Virus record (IMG/VR): IMGVR_UViG_3300022690_001189
Location: 1-49,026 of that record
Direction: 5' to 3' (one strand)
Origin: a virus
DNA: 49,026 nt
This document shows positions 21,668 to 49,026 of this stretch, one piece after another. Within the stretch, counting starts at the first letter, position 1, and the number at the start of each line of letters is the position of its first letter. The notes under the pieces were generated by a model. That model did no database searches. It saw only the letters and a list, made by a program, of their open reading frames with translations, and was not told the DNA's origin. The position numbers were made by a program, and so were the translations under genes.

Positions 21668-24600
21668 ATGTATTCATATGAAGAGGCGTTTGAAGCGTCA
21701 AAAAAATATTTTAATGGAGACGAACTTGCGGCTAAGGTTTTTATTGACAAATATTCTCTGAGGAATAATGAAAACGAAATACTTGAAGACACACCAGAAC
21801 GAATGCATTGGCGGTTGGCGAAAGAATTTGCAAGAATAGAAAAGAGAAAATATAAGGGAACTAATATTGAGCCTTTGAGTAAAGAAGAAGTGTTTTCTTA
21901 TTTTGATAAATTTAAATATATTGTGCCTCAAGGTTCTCCTATGTATGGGATTGGTAATAAGTATCAATATGTTAGTTTGAGTAATTGTTATGTATTACCT
22001 ACTTATGATTCTTATGGTGGCATTTTACAAACAGATGAACATATTGTACAAATCAGCAAAAGAAGGGGTGGTAGCGGCCATGACATTTCTCCCCTTCGCC
22101 CACGTGATTTTTATGTTAAGAATTCTGCTAAATCAACAAGTGGCGCTGTATCATTTATGAATCGATTTTCCAATACTGGACGAGAGGTAGGGCAATTTGG
22201 GCGCAGGTCAGCACAGATGATTACTATTAGTTGTCACCATCCAGATATTTTAGAATTCATAAAAGTCAAATCTGATAAAACTAAAGTGACAGGGGCAAAT
22301 ATATCTGTTCGATTATCAAATGAATTTTTAGAAGCCGTCAAAAAAAATAAAAAATATGAACTTAGATGGCCTGTTGACGCTAAAAACCTTCAATTTTCAA
22401 AAGATATAGATGCTAATTTGGTGTGGAACGAAATAGTTACTCAAGCTACAAATCATAGTGAACCTGGAATCTTGTTTTGGGACAATATTTTGCAAGAAAG
22501 TCCAGCAGATTGTTATGAAGAATATCAAACTTCATCTACAAATCCTTGCCAGCCCTCATGGAGTAAAATGTTATGTAAAAATAGTATTAGAACTTTATCT
22601 CAAGTTAATATTGGAGATTATATTTGGACTATAGAAGGATGGAGCAAAGTTGTAAACAAGCAATCTTCCGGAATACAAAAAGTTTATAAATATTCTACCA
22701 ATGCTGGAGTATTTTTCGGAACAAAAGACCACAAAATTGTTAGTAATGATAAAAAAATAAAAGTTAAGAATGCTGAATCAATAGATATGCTAGCTGGTCC
22801 ATATAATAATAAAGTTAAAATAATTCCAGAAATCGTTATGGATGGACTAATAATAGGAGATGGTAGTAAACATAAAGCTTCTAACAATTTAATTTATTTG
22901 TGCATTGGACAAAATGATTATGATTATTTTAATAGTGAAATTAAATCGTTAATTATTAAGAAATTATGGAAAAGCGTCCCGTCTAAATTTAGTGTAAAAA
23001 CTAGTATAAAAATAGAAGAATTAAATCACACTTATAATAGAAAAATCCCAACAAGATTTATATGTGGAAATAAAAATGAAATTTGTAGTTTTTTGAGAGG
23101 AATTTATTCTGCTAATGGTTGTGTGGATAAAGATGCAAAAATAATAAAATTGAGTGCTACATCATTACAAATAATAGAAGATGTTCAATGTATGTTATCG
23201 TCAATAGGTATTCGTTCTTATTATACAATAACTAAAAAGAAAATATATAAATTTAAGAATGGTAAATATGAAGGTAAGCAAAAATATAATTTGAATATTA
23301 CTGTAGATAGAGAAAAATTTTATAATCTAATAGGATTTATTCAAAAATACAAAATGCATATATTGGAACAATATATTGAAAAAATGAAAAAGCCATCTAG
23401 ACCACACAAAATAGCATATGATATAACGTCTGTTGAATTTGTATCAGAAGAAGAAGTATTTGATATCACGGTTGATAATAATACTCATACTTTTTGGTCT
23501 CAAGGATTAAATATTTCCAATTGTTCTGAAATACCTCTTAGTCCTTTCGATTCATGCCGACTTCTTTGTCTAAATCTATTTAGTTATGTTAATCAACCGT
23601 TTACTAAAAATGCTAATTTTGATTATAAATTATTTTATGAACATTCACAAATAGCACAAAGATTGATGGATGATATAGTCAATTTAGAATTAGAACATAT
23701 TGATAAAATAATAAATAAAATTAAATCTGACCCAGAGCCAGAGAAAATAAAAAGAACCGAATTAGATTTATGGATTAATATTAAAAAAGCTTGTATTAAT
23801 GGAAAAAGGACAGGAACTGGTATTACTGGTTTAGGGGATACATTAGCAGCATTAAATGCAAAGTATGGTTCAAAAAGAAGCATATTAATTGCAGAAGATA
23901 TATATAAAGTATTAAAATTCGGGTGTTATCGAGCAAGTATTAATATGGCAAAAGCTATTGGTCCATTTCCATTATGGGATTATAAAAAAGAGAAGAATCA
24001 AGCGTTTTTGAATAGATTTAAGGATGAAACAATAAAACTATATAACAATAATTGTCCTTGCGGACCTTGTGAAGATTGTGAAATTATTATTGAAGGTAAA
24101 AAATTATATAATGATATGAAAAAATATGGTAGGAGAAATATTGCATTACTCACGATTGCTCCAACTGGAACAGTTAGTATACAAACACAAACTACTTCTG
24201 GCATAGAACCAGCTTTTATGTTAAAATATACTAGAAGAAAAAAAGGTAATCCTGGAGATGATAATTTTAAAACTGATTTTGTAGATGAAAGTGGAGACCA
24301 CTGGCAAGAATTTGAAGTATATCATCCTAAATTGCAAATGTGGATGGGTATTACCGGTGAAAAAGATATTACCAAATCACCTTGGCATGAGTCATGTGCA
24401 GAAGAAATAGATTGGCAAAATCGTGTTAAACTGCAAGCAGCCGTTCAAAAGCATTGTGACCATGCAATAAGTTCGACTTTGAATCTTCCAGAAGATGTTT
24501 CTGTAGAAGAAGTTAAGAAAATATATGAAACAGCATGGAAATCTGGATGTAAAGGAATAACTGTCTATAGAAAAAATTCTCGTACAGGCGTCCTCATTGA

Positions 24601-25111
24601 TTCCCAATCCAAACCTCTCCCTACTCAACGACCCAAAGAGCTTGCTTGCGATGTTCATCATCTCACTGTAAAAGGCGAAGCCTATTTTGTTTTGGTAGGA
24701 TTATTTAATGATGTTCCTTTTGAAGTTTTTGCTGGTAAAAATGGGGTCATAAAAAAGACTGTAAAGAAAGGAAAAATTATTAGAGTGAAAAAAGGAACTT
24801 ATAACGCCTTGTTAGAAGACGGGAGTGAATTAACCCCCTCAGATTTTTGTAATAATGATGAGGAAGCCGTTGCTAGAATGACTTCTATAGCTTTAAGAGG
24901 TGGGACCGACCTTCACGAAATAGTCCTCCAATTAGAGAAAGTTCGGGGCGATATGTTAAGTTTTGCAAAATCTATCTCCAGGGCCTTGAAAAAATATCTG
25001 GCAGATGGTATAATGGTGGACGAAGCTTGTCCGAAGTGTGAGAGTAAGTCAATGGCGAGACAGGAGGGATGTGTTACTTGTTTAGCTTGTGGATATTCGA
25101 AATGTTCCTAG
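21668..25111 (+). CDS. nrdJ: Class II-type ribonucleotide reductase, intein-containing
   Basis: The 1147-residue precursor contains an 822-residue RNR and a 325-residue intein. The RNR part shows VSLSNCYVLP (catalytic Cys107), GGSGHDISPLRP, GANISVRLSNEF and, after splicing, NPCSEIPLSPFDSCRLL. The NPCxE motif holds the thiyl-radical Cys and radical-site Asn and Glu. APTGTVSIQTQTTSGIEP and a C-terminal zinc/redox tail (CPKCESKS, CVTCLACGYSKC) are typical of adenosylcobalamin-dependent NrdJ. There is no N-terminal ATP cone and no NrdB gene nearby. It reduces ribonucleotides to deoxyribonucleotides for phage replication. Confidence 0.9.
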   Translation: MYSYEEAFEASKKYFNGDELAAKVFIDKYSLRNNENEILEDTPERMHWRLAKEFARIEKRKYKGTNIEPLSKEEVFSYFDKFKYIVPQGSPMYGIGNKYQYVSLSNCYVLPTYDSYGGILQTDEHIVQISKRRGGSGHDISPLRPRDFYVKNSAKSTSGAVSFMNRFSNTGREVGQFGRRSAQMITISCHHPDILEFIKVKSDKTKVTGANISVRLSNEFLEAVKKNKKYELRWPVDAKNLQFSKDIDANLVWNEIVTQATNHSEPGILFWDNILQESPADCYEEYQTSSTNPCQPSWSKMLCKNSIRTLSQVNIGDYIWTIEGWSKVVNKQSSGIQKVYKYSTNAGVFFGTKDHKIVSNDKKIKVKNAESIDMLAGPYNNKVKIIPEIVMDGLIIGDGSKHKASNNLIYLCIGQNDYDYFNSEIKSLIIKKLWKSVPSKFSVKTSIKIEELNHTYNRKIPTRFICGNKNEICSFLRGIYSANGCVDKDAKIIKLSATSLQIIEDVQCMLSSIGIRSYYTITKKKIYKFKNGKYEGKQKYNLNITVDREKFYNLIGFIQKYKMHILEQYIEKMKKPSRPHKIAYDITSVEFVSEEEVFDITVDNNTHTFWSQGLNISNCSEIPLSPFDSCRLLCLNLFSYVNQPFTKNANFDYKLFYEHSQIAQRLMDDIVNLELEHIDKIINKIKSDPEPEKIKRTELDLWINIKKACINGKRTGTGITGLGDTLAALNAKYGSKRSILIAEDIYKVLKFGCYRASINMAKAIGPFPLWDYKKEKNQAFLNRFKDETIKLYNNNCPCGPCEDCEIIIEGKKLYNDMKKYGRRNIALLTIAPTGTVSIQTQTTSGIEPAFMLKYTRRKKGNPGDDNFKTDFVDESGDHWQEFEVYHPKLQMWMGITGEKDITKSPWHESCAEEIDWQNRVKLQAAVQKHCDHAISSTLNLPEDVSVEEVKKIYETAWKSGCKGITVYRKNSRTGVLIDSQSKPLPTQRPKELACDVHHLTVKGEAYFVLVGLFNDVPFEVFAGKNGVIKKTVKKGKIIRVKKGTYNALLEDGSELTPSDFCNNDEEAVARMTSIALRGGTDLHEIVLQLEKVRGDMLSFAKSISRALKKYLADGIMVDEACPKCESKSMARQEGCVTCLACGYSKCS
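22547..23521 (+). mobile_element. Intein with LAGLIDADG endonuclease inside RNR
   Basis: Precursor residues 294-618. It starts at Cys294 (NPC|QPSW) and ends at Asn618 (NISN|C), with Cys619 as the first C-extein residue. N-terminal splicing blocks are LSQVNIGDYIWTIEG and GTKDHKIVS; C-terminal blocks are VFDITVDNNTHTFW and LNISN. The penultimate residue is Ser instead of His. Two DOD-type motifs are visible: MDGLIIGDGSK and FLRGIYSANGCV. The element probably still homes. It sits directly before the radical Cys of the NPCxE motif. Confidence 0.85.
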
Positions 25112-36909: not shown

Positions 36910-37074
36910 ATGAGTTCACATTTAGAAATTTTTATCAACGAATTGAAATATAAAGGCAAAAAAAATAGTCAACCTAATTTTTTAGTTGAAGATAAATACC
37001 ATGAAATATACCAGATTTGGCTGGATATTGTTTTAGAAGGTAGGATTGGAGATAACATAGATTATGTGGTTTAA
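36910..37074 (+). CDS. Small hypothetical protein, 54 aa
   Basis: An ATG at 36910 opens a 54-codon frame ending TAA 37072-37074, overlapping the start of the polymerase gene by 11 bases. It is helical and mixed charge, with no motif. Overlap with a strong gene makes it plausible as a coupled leader protein. Confidence 0.45.
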   Translation: MSSHLEIFINELKYKGKKNSQPNFLVEDKYHEIYQIWLDIVLEGRIGDNIDYVV

Positions 37075-38971
37075 CTTAAACTGCCACTCACACTTTTCTC
37101 TGCTAACTTCTACAGCAAAACCCAAACAAATAGCTGAGAGATGTAAAGAGCTTGGTATGAATGGATGTGCTCTTGTAGATAGCGGTAATCTTAGCGGAGC
37201 CATACAATTTATAAAAGCTATGCACAAAGAAAAACTAAAATGGATTTTGGGTTGTGAAATATATTTATGTAAAGATGACCCATCAATAAAAAATAAAGAA
37301 AATTCTTTTTTAACTCACTTAACTGTCTTAGCCAAAAACTTAGATGGGTGGAAAAGTTTAGTAGGGGCAGTCAATGAGTCAAATAAACCCGAATACTTCT
37401 ACAAGAAACCTCGATTAAATCTAGATAAACTAGCACAATTTGCAGGAAACATAATAATTATTAATGGGGGCACCTTCACTGATTTGGGAAATTGTATATT
37501 TGGCGAAAACGTCCGAGCAGCTTATAACGCCAGAACGTATGATGAAGCAAAAAAATGCGTGGTGGATGATTGGGTAGATATAGTTTTCGTGAAGGCAATT
37601 AAATATAGAGAAATGTTTGGTAAAGAAAACTTTTTTTTGGAAATCTCACTGATGGACCAAGATAACCTACCCGCCACAAAAGTAATAGCAGAAGCTCTCC
37701 GTCATATCTCTCAAAGCACTGAAATCCCATGTGTAGCTACGGCCCCTTCTTATTACTGCAAACCTGAAGACGCTGCTGACCAACGTATACTTCTTTGCTC
37801 AAAATACGAGACTACATTGAGAAAGATTCAAAAGAAGTTAGATAATGATGATGATATCTCACTAAGTAAGTTTTTCCATTCAAATCAATATTATATGCCT
37901 TCAATGGAAGAGATGGGCCAGTTACATACGCAAGATGAGATTGAGAACTCTCTGCTAATTTCTGATATGTGTGAAGATTATAACGTCTTTAGTCAGCCCT
38001 TGCTTCCCCGTTTTGCTTGTCCTGATAGAGTGAGTGAGGTCGAACATTTAAGACAATTGTGTAGAGAGGGATGGAAGAAGAAAATAGGTAATAATATAGA
38101 CAGTTCTAAACATCCCATATATGTAGATAGAATAAAAAAAGAACTTGCGGTATTAGAAGAGGCTAATCTATCTGGATATTTTTTGATTGTTCAAGATTAT
38201 GTTGAATGGGCTCATAATAATGCTATAAACACAGGCTCGCGCGGAAGCGCCGCAGGTTGTCTCGTATCCTACTTATTAAATATTACTGATATTGACCCAA
38301 TAAGGTTCGATTTGATTTTTGAAAGATTTTATAATGCTGGTCGTAATACTAAGGATAGAGTGGCTTTACCAGATATTGATGTGGATTTTCCAAAGTTCAA
38401 ACGGTCAGAAGTAATTAACTATATAAAAAGTAAGTATGGTGAGAACTGTGTCAGTCATATGCTAACATTCGGTAGAATGCAGGGGCGTAGTGCTCTAAAA
38501 GATGTTTTGCGGGCGCATGATGCGTGTAGTTACGAAGAGATGAATTTGTTGACTAGACATATCCCTAACGAAGCAGATATTTCTGACCAACTCCAACTAA
38601 TGAGAGAACAGGATGGGGAAGCCAGTATAATTCAATGGGCTTTAGAAAATAATAAAAAGGAATTGCAACCTTGGTGTTCTATTAACGACGGTCAGTTAGA
38701 CGGTAAATTCTCACAATATTTTGCTCAAGCAATTCGATTAGAAGGCACCAAACGTAATCAAGGAAAACATGCGTCCGGTTTGGTTATTTCGGCAAATGCT
38801 CTTGACAAAACAATTCCAATGGTTTATGATAAAAGTGACGACCAATTGATTGCGGGATTGGAAATGGAAGATTTGGAGTCGTTGGGACAGGTGAAATTTG
38901 ATATATTAGGTATTACATATTTAGATAAAGTAATGGGGGTGCAAAAATTATTAGAAACTGGTACAATATAA
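37064..38971 (+). CDS. dnaE: DNA polymerase III alpha, N-terminal part (PHP and palm)
   Basis: The 635-residue protein starts with a PHP domain (NLNCHSHFSLLTS; CALVDSGNLSGAI). The palm has SGYFLIVQDYVEWAHNN, GSRGSAAGCLVSYLL, the two catalytic Asp in LPDIDVDFPKFKR, RLEGTKRNQGKHASGLVIS and the third Asp in GQVKFDILGITYLD. It then stops at KLLETGTI before the fingers domain. The remaining domains are encoded at 44590. All three catalytic Asp are here, but fingers and beta-binding regions are in the other piece. No N-intein sequence follows, so it is not an obvious split intein. Confidence 0.9.
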   Translation: MWFNLNCHSHFSLLTSTAKPKQIAERCKELGMNGCALVDSGNLSGAIQFIKAMHKEKLKWILGCEIYLCKDDPSIKNKENSFLTHLTVLAKNLDGWKSLVGAVNESNKPEYFYKKPRLNLDKLAQFAGNIIIINGGTFTDLGNCIFGENVRAAYNARTYDEAKKCVVDDWVDIVFVKAIKYREMFGKENFFLEISLMDQDNLPATKVIAEALRHISQSTEIPCVATAPSYYCKPEDAADQRILLCSKYETTLRKIQKKLDNDDDISLSKFFHSNQYYMPSMEEMGQLHTQDEIENSLLISDMCEDYNVFSQPLLPRFACPDRVSEVEHLRQLCREGWKKKIGNNIDSSKHPIYVDRIKKELAVLEEANLSGYFLIVQDYVEWAHNNAINTGSRGSAAGCLVSYLLNITDIDPIRFDLIFERFYNAGRNTKDRVALPDIDVDFPKFKRSEVINYIKSKYGENCVSHMLTFGRMQGRSALKDVLRAHDACSYEEMNLLTRHIPNEADISDQLQLMREQDGEASIIQWALENNKKELQPWCSINDGQLDGKFSQYFAQAIRLEGTKRNQGKHASGLVISANALDKTIPMVYDKSDDQLIAGLEMEDLESLGQVKFDILGITYLDKVMGVQKLLETGTI

Positions 38972-39105
38972 TTAAAGATGTAGCACAGGCTTTCATAAAG
39001 TATATTAAAATCCTGCTAATTATTTTTGGCGTCTCAGTTATAGTTGATGATTCGAGATATAATTCCGATGTAGTTAAGGTAAATTATGTACATGATAGAT
39101 ATATA

Positions 39106-39525
39106 TTGGAATTGGCTAGACAAAATAGTACCTTTGATAGGAAAAAACACAATTTTGAAGGGTTAGAACAAACACGACAAATACTTAGAAAGGTAAATAA
39201 GGGGGCGGATGATTGGTTAGTTAATACATATAAAAGAAATAAGCTATTAATAAAGCATGGATGGCCACAAGATAAAATTGCTGAGTATGATATTCTCAGT
39301 AAGAAACTGTTTTTATATAGTGCTTTTTTTGATAATAATGATGGTCTTAAAGCGTCATACATCATGCACGAATATGTTCATTCCAAACAAAGTATAATAT
39401 TACTTTTGCGTTCTCGCTTATCTTTCAACAATACAGTGATGGAGAAAGATGCTTATAATACTCAAGCTCACGTATTAGTCTGTTTAAGTCAACCAAAAAT
39501 AGCACATGAGATTTTTTTAGAATGA
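39106..39525 (+). CDS. HExxH metalloprotease-like protein, start uncertain
   Basis: The frame contains MHEYVHSKQS with HEYVH at 39367-39381, a gluzincin-type zinc motif. The first standard start is TTG 39106 (139 residues). The frame stays open back to 38929 and the upstream part encodes FIKYIKILLIIFGVSVIV, a good membrane anchor, so the true start may be a rare ATT at 38971 in a TAATT overlap with the polymerase stop. Protease activity is inferred only from the motif. It is the first gene inserted between the polymerase parts. Confidence 0.55.
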   Translation: MELARQNSTFDRKKHNFEGLEQTRQILRKVNKGADDWLVNTYKRNKLLIKHGWPQDKIAEYDILSKKLFLYSAFFDNNDGLKASYIMHEYVHSKQSIILLLRSRLSFNNTVMEKDAYNTQAHVLVCLSQPKIAHEIFLE

Positions 39526-40166
39526 CTATTTTAGTATTTGATTTTGAAACAACTGGTGTTGACCCCCACAAGTGTCAACCGGTTCAGATAGCGGCGGTCC
39601 CAATACATTCTCAAACTTTAGAATTGCAACAGAACACTTTTAATTCTATGATGAGACCAACTAATTTTGACGAGATTGATAGTGAAGTGGTAGATTGGCA
39701 CGCTAAACAAAAAGGATGTTCACCAGAAAAGATACTAGAGTCGTGGAAAAATGCCCCAGAAGCTAAAATTGTGTGGCTACAGTTTTGCGATTATGTAAAC
39801 AAATTCAATTGGAAAAATTCTAAATTTACTGGTCCTATTGCTGCTGGACATAATATAATGAATTATGATTTGATTATTGTTGAACGATTGATTCAAAGTT
39901 ATGGTTTGGGTAAGAATAAACATCTATTTAGAGTAAGAGATTGGATTGATACAATGAATCTTTGTTTTCTTTGGTTGGAAAGCGTCCCCGAGGTAAAAAG
40001 TTATAGTATGGACTATTTACGCAAATATTTTGGCTTGGATACGGAAGGAGCACATGATGCCTTGATTGATGTTATGCAATGTGGTACAATATTAACTAGG
40101 TTTTTGAAGTGGCATCGGGCTATGGCGGCAAAAACTACATTTGCTGGGAGTTTTATAAATGGATAA
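39522..40166 (+). CDS. DnaQ-like 3'-5' exonuclease
   Basis: The 214-residue protein has LVFDFETTGVDP (Exo I, Asp-Glu), GHNIMNYDLI (Exo II) and GAHDALIDV (Exo III with HxAxxD), a complete DEDDh proofreading set. It likely edits for the phage polymerase, which itself lacks an exonuclease domain. Its location between the two polymerase pieces strengthens this link. A repair nuclease role is the alternative. Confidence 0.85.
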   Translation: MTILVFDFETTGVDPHKCQPVQIAAVPIHSQTLELQQNTFNSMMRPTNFDEIDSEVVDWHAKQKGCSPEKILESWKNAPEAKIVWLQFCDYVNKFNWKNSKFTGPIAAGHNIMNYDLIIVERLIQSYGLGKNKHLFRVRDWIDTMNLCFLWLESVPEVKSYSMDYLRKYFGLDTEGAHDALIDVMQCGTILTRFLKWHRAMAAKTTFAGSFING

Positions 40167-40335
40167 CGAACATAATGATGAAGAAAAAGATTGTAATTGT
40201 GCAGGTTGTCATGCCGTAAATAAATTATTAAATATTATATCTTCTGTCTTGTTAAGTATATGCATGGTATTGTTATTTTGTGTATTGCCCGCAATGGCAT
40301 TAGTAAAATTTTTGGAGTGGTTACATGCAAGTTAA
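40159..40335 (+). CDS. Small single-pass membrane protein with Cys cluster, 58 aa
   Basis: An ATG overlapping the exonuclease stop by eight bases opens 58 codons. The N-terminus is acidic with CNCAGCH, followed by a membrane segment (about residues 22-48) and a short end. It overlaps the next ATG by 11 bases. Function unknown. Confidence 0.5.
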   Translation: MDNEHNDEEKDCNCAGCHAVNKLLNIISSVLLSICMVLLFCVLPAMALVKFLEWLHAS

Positions 40336-40582
40336 TTTGACATATTTTCAGAAACATAATGGTGAATATTATGCTAAAGGTAGTTTTGATGTTGATAATA
40401 ACTTAGACATGGATGAAATTTGTAGTATTATAAAAAAGATGGAAAATGAATGGGAATTACCTGGAGTAAATAATTTTTGTTTGGCGGAATGTTATGTAAC
40501 AGAGAATTATACGCGTTTTTATATTATACATGTAGATGTTCCTGACCATTCAAATCATTGTCCCGCATTACTTTTTGATTAA
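40325..40582 (+). CDS. Hypothetical protein, 85 aa
   Basis: TTTTGGAG precedes the ATG. It is an acidic mixed alpha/beta protein with CLAECY in the middle and a DHSNHC segment near the end. No family recognised. Confidence 0.55.
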   Translation: MQVNLTYFQKHNGEYYAKGSFDVDNNLDMDEICSIIKKMENEWELPGVNNFCLAECYVTENYTRFYIIHVDVPDHSNHCPALLFD

Positions 40583-40593
40583 AGGAGAAACTA

Positions 40594-40872
40594 ATGAAAA
40601 GAATATTTGCCTTTATCTTACTTTGTTTAATATTTGGATGTACCAATAAAAAAATAAACGAACGAGAGGTGGGTGTGTTGATTGATATTAAAGTGATACC
40701 AACATCGTTTAATGAAATTGATAAGACCAGAGTAGAAACAACAAAAGGTATATTCATTGTTAATTATTTCATATCTGGTATTAAAGGTAATCGAACATAC
40801 ATACAAGAACATGAAAACGGAGAACGTTATTTATTTATTGATAGAACACCAAAAGGTAAACGATTATTATAA
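40594..40872 (+). CDS. Small lipoprotein
   Basis: The 92-residue protein begins MKRIFAFILLCLIFGC: a Lys/Arg, a hydrophobic stretch and lipobox LIFGC with Cys at 16. The mature part is basic with several beta strands. AAAGGAG lies upstream. It is exported by Sec and lipidated by inference, possibly affecting superinfection or the envelope. Confidence 0.65.
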   Translation: MKRIFAFILLCLIFGCTNKKINEREVGVLIDIKVIPTSFNEIDKTRVETTKGIFIVNYFISGIKGNRTYIQEHENGERYLFIDRTPKGKRLL

Positions 40873-40884
40873 AAAGGAACTTTC

Positions 40885-41319
40885 ATGCCAAATTACGTAA
40901 AACAGCACGATAATTATAGTTGTGGGCCAGTAGCTATTATTAACTTATGTAAATGGGCTGGTAAAAATGTATCCTATAAAAATGATTTTGCTAAAATAAC
41001 CAAGATGTGTAAATGTAAATCTCCTAATGGAACATTTCCTGAAAATTTCAATAAGTGTTTGCGAAAATGTTTAAAAAAATGTACTAAAATTCAAGAAGTA
41101 ATCAAACCTTCTATGAAACAAATTAATAAACATTTATTGTGTAATCAGGCATTAGTTTTGCGTTACGAAGTGAAACCTCTTCATAATCATTTTATATTAA
41201 TCGTTCCTTCTAATGGTAAAACGTTTACTTGTATTAACGATGGAGATAAAATTATTAAAAAGTATTCAAAAACAATACGACAGATGAAAAAAATAGATGC
41301 TTGGTTTTTAATTAAATAA
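40885..41319 (+). CDS. C39-like cysteine peptidase
   Basis: The 144-residue protein has KQHDNYSCGPVAIINLCKWA (Cys13) at its N-terminus, the C39/papain-like pattern QxDxxSCGPxA. Later LHNHFILI supplies a His (102) and CINDGDKI an Asn/Asp (118-119). The central part is Cys-rich. No transporter is near, so it is a free-standing peptidase that may process phage or host proteins. Confidence 0.65.
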   Translation: MPNYVKQHDNYSCGPVAIINLCKWAGKNVSYKNDFAKITKMCKCKSPNGTFPENFNKCLRKCLKKCTKIQEVIKPSMKQINKHLLCNQALVLRYEVKPLHNHFILIVPSNGKTFTCINDGDKIIKKYSKTIRQMKKIDAWFLIK

Positions 41320-41327
41320 GGAGAGAA

Positions 41328-41747
41328 ATGATGGGTAAATTATTTCTAGGTTTGTGTCTTGGTTCGTTATTAGGATTATTCGTAACTGCATATACTTTTG
41401 AAACTAGCGAAGATTTGTTAAATTTAAAATTCTTTTTAAGAAAGAGTAATTTGGAATATAGCGAAACCATATCAGTTTTTCATAATCTTACATCTGAACA
41501 ATGTGGAGATGTATTTGACCCAGAATGGAAACACCCTTTATATGAAGAAGGTAAAAAGTTTATCAGTATTTCATTTAGACATAATAGTCCTAATCCTTTT
41601 AGTAATAATATCCGATTCAGTTTTGATGAAGATGGCAAGTTTGTAACTGTGGGTACGTATCCACAGATAATTGTTCCCCCATTAACAGATGAAACTTTTC
41701 CTCAAAATGGCGGAAATAAACATCCAGTTCCGGAGGATATAAAATGA
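41328..41747 (+). CDS. Putative secreted or membrane-anchored protein
   Basis: MMGKLFLGLCLGSLLGLFVTA forms a signal or anchor (ATG 41328 or 41331). The 118-residue remainder has one Cys and a beta-rich stretch RFSFDEDGKFVTVGTY, ending in a Pro-rich tail. It overlaps the next gene by four bases. Family unknown. Confidence 0.5.
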   Translation: MMGKLFLGLCLGSLLGLFVTAYTFETSEDLLNLKFFLRKSNLEYSETISVFHNLTSEQCGDVFDPEWKHPLYEEGKKFISISFRHNSPNPFSNNIRFSFDEDGKFVTVGTYPQIIVPPLTDETFPQNGGNKHPVPEDIK

Positions 41748-41935
41748 GATTTAGACTACCTAAAGATGGAGATGAGCGAATCATTACTAAATTTGCTTGG
41801 CTGCCTATCAATATAGTAGAAAATTATAGATGGTTAGAACGAGTGACAGTAAAACAAAATTATAATGAATATCACGGTTGGATGAATATGAAATTTATTG
41901 ATGAAACGGCTCCAACAGAGAGGTTAAAAGATTAA
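41744..41935 (+). CDS. Small hypothetical protein, 63 aa
   Basis: ATGA overlap with the preceding gene. Trp-rich (KFAWLPI, YRWLERV, HGWMNM), small and soluble. No known motif. Confidence 0.55.
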   Translation: MRFRLPKDGDERIITKFAWLPINIVENYRWLERVTVKQNYNEYHGWMNMKFIDETAPTERLKD

Positions 41936-41939
41936 TTGT

Positions 41940-42434
41940 ATGATAATATTGATTGATTTTGATGGTACGATTGTAGAATCCAATTATCCTCAAATAGGTA
42001 AAGCCCTACCAAAAGCTTTTGAAGTTATGGCTGAATTGATAAGGGCAGGACACACGCTTATTTTATGGACTTGTCGTGAAAATATGGGTCGTAATATAAA
42101 TAGACAGTACTTAGCTGATGCTGTGATTTTTTGTAAAGAAAATGGTGTGGAATTTGATGCTGTTAATGAAACTATTGAAGAATTAGATTTTAGAGCAGGT
42201 GAAGATTGTTTAATGAGAAAACCAAACGTAGATATTATATTAGATGATAGTAATTTTGGAGGGTTCCCCGGTTGGCAAATTATTAGAGAATATTTTTATA
42301 AAAGACCATCACCACCAATAGCACCAGAACCATCCAGTTGTCCACAAACTCCCATGGGTGATGAAAATCCCACACAAGCAGCACCACAATCTATACAATA
42401 TCCACGGGGCAGTACTGAAATAGGAATTGATTAA
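41940..42434 (+). CDS. HAD-superfamily phosphatase-like protein
   Basis: The 164-residue protein has IDFDGTIV (motif I, residues 5-12), HTLILWTCR (motif II Thr) and DIILDDSN (motif IV), as in small HAD phosphatases. A Pro-rich tail (residues 128-152) is unusual. A nucleotide or sugar-phosphate substrate is plausible; not proven. Confidence 0.7.
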   Translation: MIILIDFDGTIVESNYPQIGKALPKAFEVMAELIRAGHTLILWTCRENMGRNINRQYLADAVIFCKENGVEFDAVNETIEELDFRAGEDCLMRKPNVDIILDDSNFGGFPGWQIIREYFYKRPSPPIAPEPSSCPQTPMGDENPTQAAPQSIQYPRGSTEIGID

Positions 42435-42435
42435 A

Positions 42436-42849
42436 ATGGAAAAATTAGACCAAGAACAAATCGGTTTTATTATTAAATGTATATGTCAATGGGTAAGAAT
42501 ACGTGAAGAAGAGGGCCACCCACCTGTTCGTGAACCGATTGTGAATCATTCAGCCTTATTACGCCGATTATTAAATGGTCAGAAACCCCTTACTAAACCT
42601 CCCCCTAAAACATTTTCTCATCCTAATTATGAGTTGGGAGAAGGTAAACTTGTTGAAATTATGACTATGATTGAGACTAATTTACCAGAAATAGGTGATT
42701 GTATAGTTATTGACCATGACGCATGTTGGATGTGGTATGATAAGGATAAACAAATTTTAATATATGTACCGACACAGGAATTATATCAATTGACTATTAA
42801 AGACAATAAAAAATATTTACAAAAAATTGAACAGAATAATGACAATTAA
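42436..42849 (+). CDS. Hypothetical protein, 137 aa
   Basis: ATG 42436 follows the HAD stop by one base. It contains a basic, Pro-rich region (KPLTKPPPKTFSHP) and acidic ends. It overlaps the methylase gene by 11 bases. No motif recognised. Confidence 0.5.
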   Translation: MEKLDQEQIGFIIKCICQWVRIREEEGHPPVREPIVNHSALLRRLLNGQKPLTKPPPKTFSHPNYELGEGKLVEIMTMIETNLPEIGDCIVIDHDACWMWYDKDKQILIYVPTQELYQLTIKDNKKYLQKIEQNNDN

Positions 42850-43633
42850 ACAACCATTAAAATGGCATGGAGGTAAATATTATTTAGCAGATAAGATAAT
42901 TCAATTGATGCCGTCGCACGTACACTATGTCGAACCTTACTTTGGTGGCGGAGCTGTTCTATTTAGAAAATCATGTGATAACGTATCAGAAGTAATTAAT
43001 GATTTAAATAGTGAATTAACAAATTTTTGGACAGTCTTACAACAGAAAGATTTATTTTTTCGGTTCTATCAAATTATTATTAATATACCTTTTTCAGAAA
43101 ATGAATGGGAAAAATCAAAAACGAAAAGGTTGAATACGGTTGAAAGTGCAGTTAATTTCTTTATTAGATATCGTCAATCTAGGTCTGGATTAGGTAAGTC
43201 TTTTGCCACTCTAACCAGAAATAGAACAAGAAGAGGAATGAATGAACAGACAAGTTCTTGGTTGAGTATAATAGATGAACTACCAGAAATTCACGAAAGA
43301 TTAAAAAGGATAGTAATTCTCAATCGACCTGCTATAGATGTAATACATACGCAAGACGGGAAAAATACTTTCTTTTATCTTGACCCACCATATTTGCATC
43401 ACACTAGACAATCTACTAATTATTATGAATTTGAAATGAATGAAGATGACCATAAAAACTTGTTAAGCGTGATTAAGAACATAAAAGGAAAAGCTATAAT
43501 AAGTGGTTATGAATCAAAATTATATAATGATGAATTATGTGAATGGAATAAAAAAACATTTGATTTGCCAAATAATGCTAGTGGAAATAAGAAAAAGAAA
43601 AGAATGACTGAATGTTTATGGTATAATTACTAA
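42839..43633 (+). CDS. D12-class N6-adenine DNA methyltransferase (Dam-like)
   Basis: The protein of 264 residues starts at ATG 42839. It has LKWHGGKYYLADKI (the PxxWxGGK-type start), VEPYFGGGAVLF (SAM-binding FxGG) and FYLDPPYLHH (catalytic DPPY, Asp182), diagnostic for the D12/Dam family. The GGG and DPPY motifs are in the order of alpha-class enzymes. It probably methylates adenine in phage DNA to avoid host restriction. Recognition sequence unknown; no restriction partner is seen. Confidence 0.88.
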   Translation: MTIKQPLKWHGGKYYLADKIIQLMPSHVHYVEPYFGGGAVLFRKSCDNVSEVINDLNSELTNFWTVLQQKDLFFRFYQIIINIPFSENEWEKSKTKRLNTVESAVNFFIRYRQSRSGLGKSFATLTRNRTRRGMNEQTSSWLSIIDELPEIHERLKRIVILNRPAIDVIHTQDGKNTFFYLDPPYLHHTRQSTNYYEFEMNEDDHKNLLSVIKNIKGKAIISGYESKLYNDELCEWNKKTFDLPNNASGNKKKKRMTECLWYNY

Positions 43634-43648
43634 AATGAGATATTGTAA

Positions 43649-43939
43649 ATGATAATACCAGACCCAATACTACCATACGCCGATAAATGTCCGCATTCTG
43701 TAGATGGTTTTTGTCAAGAATGTGTGCATAAAATGACTGATTTTATAGGTATAATTAACATAAAAGATAATGGGGTAATATTAAAAAGCAGAATTGATGA
43801 ATTAATGAATGCTCGTAATGATTTAGAGGAATATCATTGTATTATTCGAATAGAAAAAGCTTTAGAAGCCCTTTTAAGATTCTATAAAACTAAAGAAGAA
43901 TTTCTAAAAGAATTTGAAGACCGTAATATTACTGAATAA
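43649..43939 (+). CDS. Small hypothetical protein with CxxC pair
   Basis: The N-terminus has DKCPHSVDGFCQECVHK, three Cys and two His that may bind zinc, followed by acidic helices. The 96-residue protein follows the methylase by 15 bases. Function unknown. Confidence 0.5.
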   Translation: MIIPDPILPYADKCPHSVDGFCQECVHKMTDFIGIINIKDNGVILKSRIDELMNARNDLEEYHCIIRIEKALEALLRFYKTKEEFLKEFEDRNITE

Positions 43940-43948
43940 GGAAAAATA

Positions 43949-44593
43949 ATGAAGTATTTTTTATTAACTATTAAACATAAATGGTTTGTTTTTTTAGCAG
44001 GATTAAAAACCAAAGCTCCTTTATGGCGTTTAATTATTCATGATTGGACCAAATTTTTACCATCAGAATTACCGCACTATCAACGTCAATTTTTCGGAAA
44101 AGCAGACCAACCTGAAAATTTCATAAAATGTTGGATTCATCATCAAAATCATAATCCTCATCATTGGGAATATTGGATTCCTCGAACGGGACATAATAGA
44201 TGTGAACCACCTTATATAGATAATGAACCTGTACCTATGCCAGAATGGGCTACAAGAGAAATGGTTGCTGATTGGTTGGGAGCTGGAAGAGTTTACGAAA
44301 AGAAATGGCCTAATATGAACTATTGGAAATGGTTAATTGAAAATAAAGATAAAATAAGATTACATGAAAATAGTGAATTCTTAATCAATAAAACATTATC
44401 CAAATTAGGTTGTCTTACAAGATTAAATAAAAAAATACAAGAAAATATACAAAATGTTTGGGTTTGTGGTAAATGTGCTGATTATGTAGGTTTTTTAGAT
44501 GAATGGGTTGAAAATTCTAGAGGTTCTGTCACCAAACCTTGCTATTTTTGTAAAGAAGTCCATTACTTGGGAAAAATCAATTGTATAAAATGA
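43949..44593 (+). CDS. DUF5662-like protein with C-terminal zinc ribbon
   Basis: The 214-residue protein has LIIHDWTKF and then CWIHHQNHNPHHWEYWI, His-rich motifs of the DUF5662 family (HD-like metal site). Residues from about 182 form a zinc ribbon (VCGKCADY and CYFCKEVH). A phosphohydrolase-like role is possible. It precedes the polymerase C-part and overlaps its ATG as ATGA, so the two are co-expressed. Confidence 0.65.
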   Translation: MKYFLLTIKHKWFVFLAGLKTKAPLWRLIIHDWTKFLPSELPHYQRQFFGKADQPENFIKCWIHHQNHNPHHWEYWIPRTGHNRCEPPYIDNEPVPMPEWATREMVADWLGAGRVYEKKWPNMNYWKWLIENKDKIRLHENSEFLINKTLSKLGCLTRLNKKIQENIQNVWVCGKCADYVGFLDEWVENSRGSVTKPCYFCKEVHYLGKINCIK

Positions 44594-46269
44594 ATGCGTT
44601 AAAAACATACAAATTTCCTTGCGGTTGTGAATTTCAAACAATAGGCCCACCACCTAATGAGGGAGAGCTGCCGTCTCTCAAAGTAGACATTAATGATGTA
44701 CCAGAAAATTGTCCAGCAACATGGGACTTACTATCACAAGGATATACTAAGGGTGTTTTCCAATTAGAAACTTATTTAGGTAAACAATGGTCTCAAAAAT
44801 TAAAACCTGAAAATTTGGAACACTTGTCAGCTCTTGGCGCTTTGTTAAGACCGGGTTGTCTAAAAGCTAAAGATTCCAATGGGATAAGTATGACTGAACA
44901 TTATTGTAGAAGAAAGAATAAGCAGGAAAGTGTTGAGTACTATCATGAGGCGTTAAAACCAATTCTTCATAAAACCTATGCCTCTTTAGTTTTTCAAGAA
45001 GATAGTATGAGAATTGCCCAGAATATTGCTGGGTTTGACTTAAAAGATGCGGACCGATTGAGAAAAAGTTTGGGACACAAATTAAGTGATGAAATGGCTC
45101 AGATAAAAAAGATATTCTTACAGGGGGCGAAAGAACAAAATATAGTTAATGAACATGACGCAGAAGAAATATTTGGGTGGATTGAAAAGGGGCAAAGATA
45201 TCTATTTTGTCAAGCTCACGCAACTGCATATGGTATAAATGGTTACATCTCTGCCTATTTAAAAACTCATTTTCCTATTCAATTTTACACTTCCTACCTC
45301 TATTACGCGAAAGACAAACAAAACCCGCATGAGGAAATAAATGAATTAGTTAATGATGCTCATTTAATGGGTGTGGACGTTTTGCCCCCTTCTATATTGA
45401 ATGTTCAAAAATATTTTTATACTAACGGTAAAGAAGTTTATTTTGGTCTAGCAAATATAAAAGGCGTTGGAGAAAAACAAATAGAGAGATTGAGTAAGCA
45501 CGTTTTAGAAGTAGAACAATTTTTGTTGAAATTCTGTCCATTTTGGACATGGTTAGAATGGTTAATATATTTTGTAAATAGTAGCTGGATGAATGTTATA
45601 GAAAGGTTAATAAAAGCGGGTTCATTCAGACATTTGAAAATTCATCGAACAAAATTATTGGCAGAATTAAATACGTGGTCACAACTAACAGATAAAGAGA
45701 GAGAGTGGGCAAAATTAGGTTGGAAAGATTGTAAAGATTTGCCAGAGATATTAGATAAAATGGCTGTAAAAAAGAGGTCAAAGAAAGACCCACCCAAATA
45801 TATTGGAGGTGCCTCCGCAAATAAGAACCGAACTGAGAAAATAAATAGTTTATCTTATCTATTGAAAAATCCACCAACAAGTTTAGGTGATAATCCCGAA
45901 TGGATAGTAAATACAGAGCAGGAACTGTTAGGAATTGCTTTAACCTGCCATAGAGTTGATTCCCATGATACTTCATCTGCTAATTCTTCCTGTAAAGATT
46001 TTTTTAATGGTAAAATAGGTAATTTGATATTGGCCGTTGAAATAAACGGAATTAGGGAAGTGACCTGTAAGAATGGGAAAAGTAGGGGAAAAAGAATGGC
46101 CTTTCTTACTGTTTCTGACCACAGTTGTATGTTAGATACGGCGATTGCCTTTCCAGATGTGTGGTCTAAATTCAATAATCTTTTGCAGGAAAAAAATGTA
46201 GTTTTAATATATAGTCAACTAAAAGAGAAAGGAGGTAGTTTAATCATACAAAAAGTCAAACAAATATGA
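44590..46269 (+). CDS. dnaE: DNA polymerase III alpha, C-terminal part (fingers to OB region)
   Basis: Start is ATG 44590, overlapping the upstream stop (TTG 44581 alternative). The first 50 residues carry YKFPCGCEFQTIG, then DINDVPENCPATWDLLSQGY leads to TKGVFQLE, the fingers motif of DnaE. HKTYASLVFQEDSMRIAQNI, HATAYGINGYISAYLK and FGLANIKGVGEKQIERL (HhH) follow, and an OB-like tail. Together with the 37064 product (635 + 559 residues) it equals a normal alpha subunit. The join lies between palm and fingers. No C-intein precedes it. Confidence 0.88.
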   Translation: MNALKTYKFPCGCEFQTIGPPPNEGELPSLKVDINDVPENCPATWDLLSQGYTKGVFQLETYLGKQWSQKLKPENLEHLSALGALLRPGCLKAKDSNGISMTEHYCRRKNKQESVEYYHEALKPILHKTYASLVFQEDSMRIAQNIAGFDLKDADRLRKSLGHKLSDEMAQIKKIFLQGAKEQNIVNEHDAEEIFGWIEKGQRYLFCQAHATAYGINGYISAYLKTHFPIQFYTSYLYYAKDKQNPHEEINELVNDAHLMGVDVLPPSILNVQKYFYTNGKEVYFGLANIKGVGEKQIERLSKHVLEVEQFLLKFCPFWTWLEWLIYFVNSSWMNVIERLIKAGSFRHLKIHRTKLLAELNTWSQLTDKEREWAKLGWKDCKDLPEILDKMAVKKRSKKDPPKYIGGASANKNRTEKINSLSYLLKNPPTSLGDNPEWIVNTEQELLGIALTCHRVDSHDTSSANSSCKDFFNGKIGNLILAVEINGIREVTCKNGKSRGKRMAFLTVSDHSCMLDTAIAFPDVWSKFNNLLQEKNVVLIYSQLKEKGGSLIIQKVKQI

Positions 46270-46727: not shown

Positions 46728-49026
46728 ATGATGGATAGAAAACGACGAATACTTCTTTGTAATGAAGCAAGCTTCCTCTCAACCGGCTACGCGGTGTACG
46801 GCGCTGAGGTATTAAAGAGGCTTCATGCTACGGGAAAGTATGAATTAGCAGAGTTTGCTTCCTATGGAGCGCCGAATGACCCACGCCAGTTTGATATGGG
46901 TTGGAAGTATTATGGGAATTTGCCAGTTAGTGAGCAGGAGAATAAAGTATATGAGTCGGACCCGGCTAATCAATTTGGTAAATGGAAGTTTGAGCACATC
47001 TGCTTAGATTTTAAGCCAGACGTAATCTTTACAATTCTCGATTATTGGATGTGTTCGCATATATTGCATTCTCCGTTTAGAAAGTTTTTTCATTATGTTC
47101 AAATGCCTACCGTAGACAGCACTCCACAGAACGAGGAATGGGTTTCAGGTCATATAAGCTCTGATGCAATTTTTACCTACACGGAATGGGCTCAGGAAGT
47201 ATTAAGAAAGCAAGGAAAAGATAAAATAAATTTGGTTGGTGTTGCCACGCCGTGTGCGGATTTAGAAGTATTTAAGCCTGTCCCCTGTAAGAAGACACAT
47301 AAAAAGGAGTTTGGATTTGACCCTGACTCTTTAATTGTTGGCAGTTTAATGAGAAACCAGAAGCGGAAGCTTTATCCGGAGTTTATTAATGCTTTCAAGT
47401 TATTTTTATCTAAGACTTCGCCCGAAATTGCGAAGAAAACTTTTTTATATTTCCATCTTTCTTATCCGGACGTGGGCTGGGATATTCCACATTTAATTAA
47501 GAAAAGTGATATTGGCCACAAAATAATATTCACTTACATTTGCAAAGGATGTCACCATACTTTTGCATCTTTTTGGAATGGTGCTCGTTGCGTTTGCAAA
47601 GCGTGTGGAGCACCATTAGGATTATTGCCAAACACAAAGCTTGGTATTACTACGGAGGCTCTAGCGAGTGTGATTAATCTTTTTGATGTATATACGCAAT
47701 ATTCAAATTGCCTTCCGCCAACAGAAGAAATTAAATTAAAGCGCGGTTGGGTGTCGATTTCTCAAGTACAAATAGGAGATTTAGCACTGACACATACAGG
47801 AGAATATAAATCGATATTAAATGTGTTTAAGAATCCGTATAAAAATAATATGAAAAAAATAAAGGTTAAAGGAGATTATGAAATATTGAAAATTAGTAGC
47901 AACCATAGAGTTTATGCGTACACAAAAAAAACTTTAGGTAAACCAAATTATTATAAGTCTACTAGAAATTTATTGGGATATCAAATTAGAAATGGAAATA
48001 AAATACCACCACCAGATTTGATTATTGTAAAAGATTTGCAGATAGGCGATTTAATGTGTATGCCAATTGACCAATCAGGGAAAAATATTTCTAAAATTGA
48101 CTTAATGGAATTTACACGACCACAAGATATTGTTTTAAATGATTCTATTAAAATATATATGGGTCATACCTATCCACGTTTTATTAATATATCTGATGAA
48201 TTTTGTCAATTTGTAGGATTATTTGTGGCTGATGGAAGTGTTAGTTATGAGAATGCTAAGAATAGTAATGGAATTCGGGTAACTAATAATATAAATTCGC
48301 ATGATAATAAACAATTATGTGAAAATATATTAGAAAAACTTACAAATAAAAAACCTGCTGTAATTAAGTGCAAACATGCAAATGCTATTATTATTGAAGT
48401 TTATTCAACATTACTCAAAATAGCATTTAGAGAATGGTGCTATGATGGTAAGCAAAAAAAGTTACCTACTTGGATAATAAATAGTTTATCGCCTAATCAA
48501 GAAAAACATGTTTTATCAGGCTTGTTCATGGGTGACGGCTGTTATTTGGATAAACAACAAATATCTTCTTACACTACCGTCTCTCCAATTTTAGCTACAC
48601 AAATTAAATTGTTATTACGTCGAAATAAAATAATTTTTCATTGTCGTATTGACACATGTCCTATGAATAATAAAAATAATTACACTAAACAACCGCTTTA
48701 CACATTTGCAGTGCAAGGAAATATTGCTAAAGGAATGTTTAAAATCAACAAAAGCGTTGGTTCACCAAGCTTATATTTTAATGATTATCATTTGCAATAT
48801 ATTAAATCCATTAAAGACGAACAATATGACGACAAACACGTATATGACATCAAAATAAAAGATAATCATAGTTACACAACAAAAATAGGCGTAATACATA
48901 ATTCAGGTGCCTTAGAAATGCCTTTGGTTGAAGCTGGAGCTTGTGGCGTCCCCATTATGGCCACCGATTTTTCTGGAATGAAGCATCCCCTTGAGAAACT
49001 AAACGGCATTCCAATAAAACCACTCT
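46728..49026 (+). CDS. Glycosyltransferase family 4-like enzyme with zinc ribbon and intein (partial)
   Basis: ATG 46728 (or 46731) opens a frame that is still open at the window end (766 codons visible). The N-domain has LCNEASFLSTGYAVYGAEVL; FHYVQMPTVDSTP and YTEWAQEVL follow; IVGSLMRNQKRKLYPEFINA begins the second domain. A zinc ribbon (ICKGCHH and CVCKACGA) is inserted within the C-domain, and an intein is inserted between YTQYSN and SGALEMPLVEAGACGVP, the E-containing donor loop. Its donor and acceptor are unknown; it may modify phage DNA bases or glycans. Confidence 0.8.
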   Translation, partial: MMDRKRRILLCNEASFLSTGYAVYGAEVLKRLHATGKYELAEFASYGAPNDPRQFDMGWKYYGNLPVSEQENKVYESDPANQFGKWKFEHICLDFKPDVIFTILDYWMCSHILHSPFRKFFHYVQMPTVDSTPQNEEWVSGHISSDAIFTYTEWAQEVLRKQGKDKINLVGVATPCADLEVFKPVPCKKTHKKEFGFDPDSLIVGSLMRNQKRKLYPEFINAFKLFLSKTSPEIAKKTFLYFHLSYPDVGWDIPHLIKKSDIGHKIIFTYICKGCHHTFASFWNGARCVCKACGAPLGLLPNTKLGITTEALASVINLFDVYTQYSNCLPPTEEIKLKRGWVSISQVQIGDLALTHTGEYKSILNVFKNPYKNNMKKIKVKGDYEILKISSNHRVYAYTKKTLGKPNYYKSTRNLLGYQIRNGNKIPPPDLIIVKDLQIGDLMCMPIDQSGKNISKIDLMEFTRPQDIVLNDSIKIYMGHTYPRFINISDEFCQFVGLFVADGSVSYENAKNSNGIRVTNNINSHDNKQLCENILEKLTNKKPAVIKCKHANAIIIEVYSTLLKIAFREWCYDGKQKKLPTWIINSLSPNQEKHVLSGLFMGDGCYLDKQQISSYTTVSPILATQIKLLLRRNKIIFHCRIDTCPMNNKNNYTKQPLYTFAVQGNIAKGMFKINKSVGSPSLYFNDYHLQYIKSIKDEQYDDKHVYDIKIKDNHSYTTKIGVIHNSGALEMPLVEAGACGVPIMATDFSGMKHPLEKLNGIPIKPL
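47709..48902 (+). mobile_element. Intein with LAGLIDADG endonuclease inside glycosyltransferase
   Basis: Precursor residues 328-725 (398 residues). It starts at Cys328 after YTQYSN and ends with VIHN before Ser726. Splicing blocks are visible: ISQVQIGDLALTHTGEY, ISSNHRVYAYT and, near the end, VYDIKIKDNHSYTT plus GVIHN with the canonical His-Asn pair. Two endonuclease motifs are FVGLFVADGSV and LSGLFMGDGCYL. The first C-extein residue is Ser. The intein part looks more AT-rich than the flanks. Confidence 0.88.

Follow-up and report, generated by a model that had tools for sequence, protein, structure and literature searches.

A phage DNA polymerase III alpha subunit carried as two genes across a large clade, probably without splicing

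Introduction

The viral record IMGVR_UViG_3300022690_001189, analyzed here as a single window that comprises the complete IMG/VR record (49,026 bp), carries the domains of a DnaE-type DNA polymerase III (Pol III) alpha subunit in two genes that lie far apart on the same strand. This arrangement raises the question of whether the two genes make one enzyme and, if so, how their products come together. C-family replicases, the group that includes bacterial DnaE, have been reported to be uncommon in phages. In the naturally split examples known so far, an intein reunites the parts, as noted for cyanobacterial DnaE (PMC3919608). An earlier, sequence-only reading of the window had proposed that its two pieces assemble without covalent joining. 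The analysis of the window and its relatives agrees with this proposal. We consider it highly probable that the gene was split once in the ancestor of a clade, and that the two products remain unspliced and dock into one Pol III alpha active site.

Results

Two genes with the domains of one alpha subunit

The upstream gene encodes the N-terminal part of the enzyme (N piece; Table 1), with Pfam matches to PHP at residues 5-194 and to the entire DNA_pol3_alpha profile at residues 327-616. Its AlphaFold2 (AF2) model has a predicted local distance difference test score (pLDDT) of 90.7 and matches the DnaE structures 7pu7 and 2hpi in Foldseek with an E-value of 1e-45. All three catalytic Asp residues (D437, D439 and D613) are located within this piece and, alongside key finger residues of the second piece, are invariant across 126 relatives. 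The C-terminus of the N piece reads KFDILGITYLDKVMGVQKLLETGTI, followed by the stop codon.

The downstream gene encodes the C-terminal part (C piece). Its ATG start codon overlaps the stop codon of the gene upstream (ATGA) and yields a protein of 559 aa, while an alternative TTG start at position 44581 would yield 562 aa. A short Cys-bearing leader is followed by the fingers (DNA_pol3_finger at residues 31-184), HhH (HHH_6 at residues 261-356) and OB regions. The AF2 model reaches a pLDDT of 90.3, and Foldseek returns DnaE structures with a nearly full-length fold match (E-value 5e-24).

Each half is present as a single copy in the window. Together, the two chains amount to 1194 aa, which is within the normal size of an alpha subunit, and the domain order PHP, palm, fingers, HhH and OB is retained, although spread over two polypeptides. 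The two pieces successively cover PHROG 405 (1190 positions), with the N piece spanning positions 44-614 and the C piece positions 623-1070, so that nothing was lost at the break. The break falls at the palm/fingers domain border. The sequence-only reading had described the domain content of both genes, their combined length and this border in the same way.

Table 1 Features of the split polymerase locus in the window.
Feature	Positions	Strand	Basis
Pol III alpha N piece, PHP and palm, 635 aa	37064..38971	+	Pfam PHP and DNA_pol3_alpha; AF2; Foldseek
Codons of D437-I438-D439, two palm catalytic Asp in PDIDVDF	38372..38380	+	Sequence; both Asp invariant in 126/126 aligned N pieces
Codon of D613, third catalytic Asp in KFDILG	38900..38902	+	Sequence; invariant in 126/126
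C-terminal tail of N piece past KFD: ILG and helix YLDKVMGVQKLL, chain end	38903..38971	+	Tail length in pairs; third-position excess
Pol III alpha C piece, fingers, HhH and OB, 559 aa	44590..46269	+	Pfam finger and HHH_6; AF2; Foldseek
Leader of C piece with CxC...C (C11 at 44620, C13 at 44626, C41 at 44710)	44590..44742	+	Conservation; AF2 strands; translated
DnaQ-type 3'-5' exonuclease, usual occupant of the gap	39522..40166	+	PF00929; phrog_192; position between N and C in non-redundant relatives
Block of about 11 genes between exonuclease and C piece, local insertion, not polymerase	40325..44593	+	Gap >3 kb in only 10/161 relatives
D12-class/Dam-type adenine methylase gene	42827-43633	+	Within the block of about 11 genes
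DUF5662 protein gene	43949-44593	+	Within the block of about 11 genes

Recurrence of the split in viral relatives

A scan of viral contigs with the C piece as single-protein query gave no matches, and profiles were required. Profile scans of viral contigs gathered a set of 316 loci. Both halves are present in 277 of these, as separate open reading frames (ORFs) in every one, and a further 37 carry one half only. The halves are joined in one contig only, referred to as L314, of which a second copy (L333) is part of the set. Some loci share a contig, and clustering of the paired N and C pieces leaves 161 non-redundant pairs at 95% identity and 52 at the 70% level. The N tail extends 13-38 aa past the KFDxL motif (interquartile range 18-22, 123 pairs), a narrow range that places the break in one short linker throughout. 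An assembly error, which the sequence-only reading had named as a possible source of the split, is ruled out by the identical break in all 277 loci.

The scans started from split proteins and are therefore biased toward split relatives. As a check on this bias, 77 of 80 loci from bacterial genome contigs were found to be fused. The two clearly split ones are located in contigs binned with a Flavobacteriales and a Lokiarchaeota metagenome-assembled genome, and are presumably phage contigs.

The N piece itself varies within the set. One subclade (L022, L040, L041, L046 and relatives) has N pieces of ~520 aa, which are ~100 aa shorter than the others and go together with a C piece lacking the CxC motif. 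In L044, L147, L156 and L314, the N piece is broken again just before the PDIDVD motif. In L158 (7744-11082), it is fused to a uracil-DNA glycosylase-like sequence, which in turn is apparently interrupted by an intein (named by eye).

A single origin and one re-fusion

In a tree of 51 rows, the split rows and L314 are placed on one branch (support of 100 in the Shimodaira-Hasegawa-like approximate likelihood ratio test), apart from the fused DnaE proteins of phages and bacteria. A tree of 22 rows concurs, with a support of 100/100 for the split clade. According to these trees, the split arose once and has long been kept in a large clade.

L314 contains an ORF that joins the second half of the palm to the fingers, and is nested within the split clade. 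Forcing it outside that clade costs 155 log-likelihood units and is rejected by the approximately unbiased (AU) test (p-AU 0.00018; 22 chosen rows, simpler model), so that the joined palm and fingers are best read as a re-fusion. This re-fusion supports the view that the halves work as one enzyme.

The exonuclease between the halves and the origin of the split

In the window, the two halves are separated by 5.6 kb and ~13 ORFs. An exonuclease homologous to that of the window is found between the halves in 153 of the 161 non-redundant pairs, usually as the sole gene. The median gap across the pairs is 878 bp, and in 124 of them the C piece starts within 30 nt of the exonuclease stop codon. Given this usual order and the short gap, the dozen genes of the window are best read as an insertion into a cassette of N piece, exonuclease and C piece. 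The sequence-only reading had correctly listed a dozen intervening genes, including the exonuclease and a Dam-like methylase, but a gap of this size and content is atypical of the clade, in which the rule is ~0.88 kb with the exonuclease alone.

On several deep branches (L271, L267, L152, L084, L149, L146, L147 and L262), the gene is split with no exonuclease between the halves. The split therefore appears to be older than the arrival of the exonuclease. These branches are consistent with an origin in which a homing endonuclease or another mobile element split the ancestral gene and the exonuclease moved in later, a scenario that is compatible with unspliced, docking halves. Precedents are provided by Aeh1 nrdA and T4 gene 60 (PMC2988022), and a LAGLIDADG-like ORF, named by eye from its sequence, is located at the palm break of L314. 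At the palm/fingers break of the window, the larger proteins encoded in the gap matched no homing endonuclease family. As a whole, we regard this origin as possible but less likely than not.

A Cys motif in the leader of the C piece

Two Cys residues in the C-piece leader form a CxC motif, and a third one lies further downstream. This third residue, C41, is present in 117 of 117 CxC-bearing relatives and absent from 39 of 42 that lack CxC; a separate tally finds it in 100% and 7% of the two groups, respectively, with all of these counts inflated by kinship among the sequences. In L314, the CxC portion has been lost and the third Cys is kept. Judging from this co-occurrence, the three Cys behave as a set that goes with the free N-terminus of the C piece. 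In the AF2 model, strands at residues 6-8 and 14-18 surround the CxC motif and likely form a hairpin.

In most members, the new N-terminus would carry a small three-Cys hairpin that probably stabilizes the junction between the chains, perhaps via a metal, and we hypothesize that the hairpin binds this metal at the junction itself. A fourth ligand was sought among Cys and His residues of the N piece that track CxC. The PHP His residues and H288 differ between relatives with and without the motif, but the difference is confounded, because the rows without CxC largely represent one subclade with a shortened PHP half. An unlikely reading, in our view, is that the replicase core obligately comprises three chains (N piece, exonuclease and C piece); the CxC hairpin and the third Cys would then bind a junction metal, possibly with a ligand from a partner, and the assembly of the active site would be gated by metal or redox state.

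The two pieces as the probable phage replicase

The pair of N and C pieces is very probably the replicase of the phage, as indicated by its conservation and gene context. The window genes around the polymerase encode a DnaB-like helicase, a primase, a UvsX-like recombinase, SSB and proteins of nucleotide metabolism. In 22 records of relatives (64-224 kb), one palm gene and one finger gene were found in each; double matches in two of them (G009 and G014) are pieces or interrupted parts of a single protein. Neither a family-A nor a family-B polymerase was detected in these 22 records, and the middle domain of the beta clamp gave no match in them. A separate complete polymerase, to which the second gene might have belonged according to a caveat of the sequence-only reading, is thereby excluded for the window record and the 22 relatives, given the single-copy halves. 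Furthermore, the C piece is under purifying selection, with 1079 synonymous versus 238 nonsynonymous codon changes in close pairs. Evolutionary distances of the N piece, the exonuclease and the C piece are mutually correlated at 0.67-0.72, and with those of a Cas4-like neighbor at 0.48-0.53.

Several observations weigh against a single working enzyme. The distance correlation of the three proteins is only modestly above this background. Residues 206-210 of the window C piece (559-aa numbering) read FCQAH, where nearly all relatives have FNKSH. In addition, the L314 polymerase is broken elsewhere, at the palm insert before PDIDVD, and its re-fusion is no proof of a single-chain enzyme. The site of FNKSH also varies in the distant relative L152, which carries FCAGH.

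The FCQAH variant, together with S392 in place of Gly in the palm and the replacement of several PHP His residues in the window N piece, could suggest that the split enzyme is not the replicase and that one half is a decaying remnant or is separately employed. We hold this to be very improbable in view of the invariant catalytic Asp and key finger residues, the single copies and the lack of family-A and family-B polymerases in the 22 relatives, the purifying selection on the C piece, and the nearby helicase, primase and SSB genes.

No joining element found at the break

Both ends at the break were compared by codon position in 23 close pairs. In the N tail, 164 differences fall on third positions versus 67 and 44 on the other two; in the C leader, the numbers are 397 versus 209 and 162. 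This third-position excess indicates that translation extends to the free end of each piece. Neither piece of the window matches an intein family, and the N tail leaves no room for the N-half of an intein. An Rfam scan of the window and eight relatives, by which only families known to Rfam are detectable, returned no family at cut-off, and a permissive RNA-family scan of the gap gave chance-level matches only. Translated ends that lack a recognizable intein or intron fit two finished proteins, not intron or intein halves. The absence of a flanking split intein had been claimed from the sequence alone and is borne out here; a missed intein or intron, raised at the same time as a concern, was not found by these searches.

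Inteins are known in the neighborhood and in the clade, namely in the glycosyltransferase of the window and the C piece of L110, which could point to protein trans-splicing of the halves as in cyanobacterial DnaE or in fractured phage genes with split inteins. The N pieces, ending 13-38 aa past KFDxL, are too short for this, the C leaders align with one another, and neither piece resembles an intein family, which makes such joining highly improbable. Introns can interrupt phage genes, yet joining in RNA by a split trans-splicing intron has no specific support here and scarcely merits consideration, with no Rfam intron match in the window and eight relatives and with a tail and a leader that are translated to their own stop and start, the latter bearing the conserved Cys motif. 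Unspliced assembly of the two chains is favored instead. More specifically, the one re-fused contig, the single-copy halves and the translated free ends make it very likely, as far as sequences can tell, that the N and C pieces assemble non-covalently.

Discussion

In the history that we propose, a single event in an ancestor of the clade cut a DnaE-type gene within the linker that connects the final palm helix to the initial fingers strand. The N and C pieces would be separate translation products that each fold alone, and would dock where the linker used to be, together forming a single Pol III alpha active site of the ordinary kind. The DnaQ-type exonuclease, often translationally coupled to the C piece, would proofread in trans.

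The enzyme shares its domain order, fold and catalytic residues with the bacterial Pol III alpha subunit, for which the exonuclease is likewise a separate chain. It differs from this single polypeptide in its two genes and in the Cys hairpin that starts the C chain. Cyanobacterial DnaE with the Ssp and Npu split inteins is also encoded in two distant genes. However, its break lies at FNKSH, a site that the C piece of the window passes uninterrupted, and its exteins are flanked by an intein N-half and C-half, which the pieces at the palm/fingers border are not.

Among phage replicases, splits have been known for family B, and the system described here is a variant of such genes in pieces, with a DnaE homologue. 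In Aeromonas phage 25, the two parts of the polymerase 43A/43B purify together as an active enzyme, and the split NrdA of Aeh1 is functional (PMC2988022). Together with the T4 topoisomerase, these represent phage replication enzymes in two unspliced chains, as we suggest for the present one from its sequence. The earlier cases concern another polymerase family and border and are reported from a few phages, with a mobile element or an untranslated spacer at the break (PMC2988022), unlike the present split, which marks a large and old clade and usually has an exonuclease gene between its halves. A homing endonuclease gene in the break, typical of genes in pieces, was not seen among the larger gap proteins of the window.

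Other phages carry DnaE in two genes as well. In the cultured Rossellomorea phage phiT1 (PV767480), gp20 and gp18 are annotated as two alpha genes and are split at nearly the same border. They have a separate origin beside an unsplit Moorella phage, contain a 49-aa ORF and no exonuclease between them, and lack the Cys motif. Since phiT1 groups with an unsplit phage, breaks at the palm/fingers border have two or more origins. In actinophages (e.g. Microbacterium phage Sparcetus gp61/gp63) and Bacillus phage G (gp329/gp339), the break lies before or inside the palm, within the N half, and the palm/fingers junction is intact. Phage G had been suggested by a fold search as a split at the same border and was rejected, as gp339 holds the intact junction. 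Our literature searches returned no account of a C-family replicase that is split throughout a clade and lacks an intein, although key older papers fall outside their coverage and an earlier mention is possible.

A large and deeply divergent phage lineage thus appears to retain a replicase whose catalytic subunit consists of two unspliced chains (52 clusters at 70% identity, one re-fusion). The natural split point could be useful for tests of palm-fingers communication and for the design of split-polymerase tools, and the lineage opens to experiment the question of how an essential enzyme remains split through evolution. Annotation and marker-gene surveys that expect a full-length DnaE may miss or double-count such phages.

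Inserts were observed in several proteins of the window and its relatives. The window contains a glycosyltransferase gene (46728-49025) with an apparent intein bearing a LAGLIDADG domain, whose ORF runs off the record. Family matches of its ribonucleotide reductase large subunit (21668-25111, 1147 aa) skip residues ~376-590, a stretch that is possibly an insert or intein. Among the relatives, the Cas4-like nuclease gene of L314 (1131-3155) has an apparent internal intein, named by eye. The C pieces of L130, L144 and L149 contain inserts of ~140-300 aa, in L130 and L144 at or near the FNKSH site, which are likely inteins. In L110 (15964-18847), the C piece is split again at the split-intein site of cyanobacterial DnaE, and its second part opens with an intein-like C-half.
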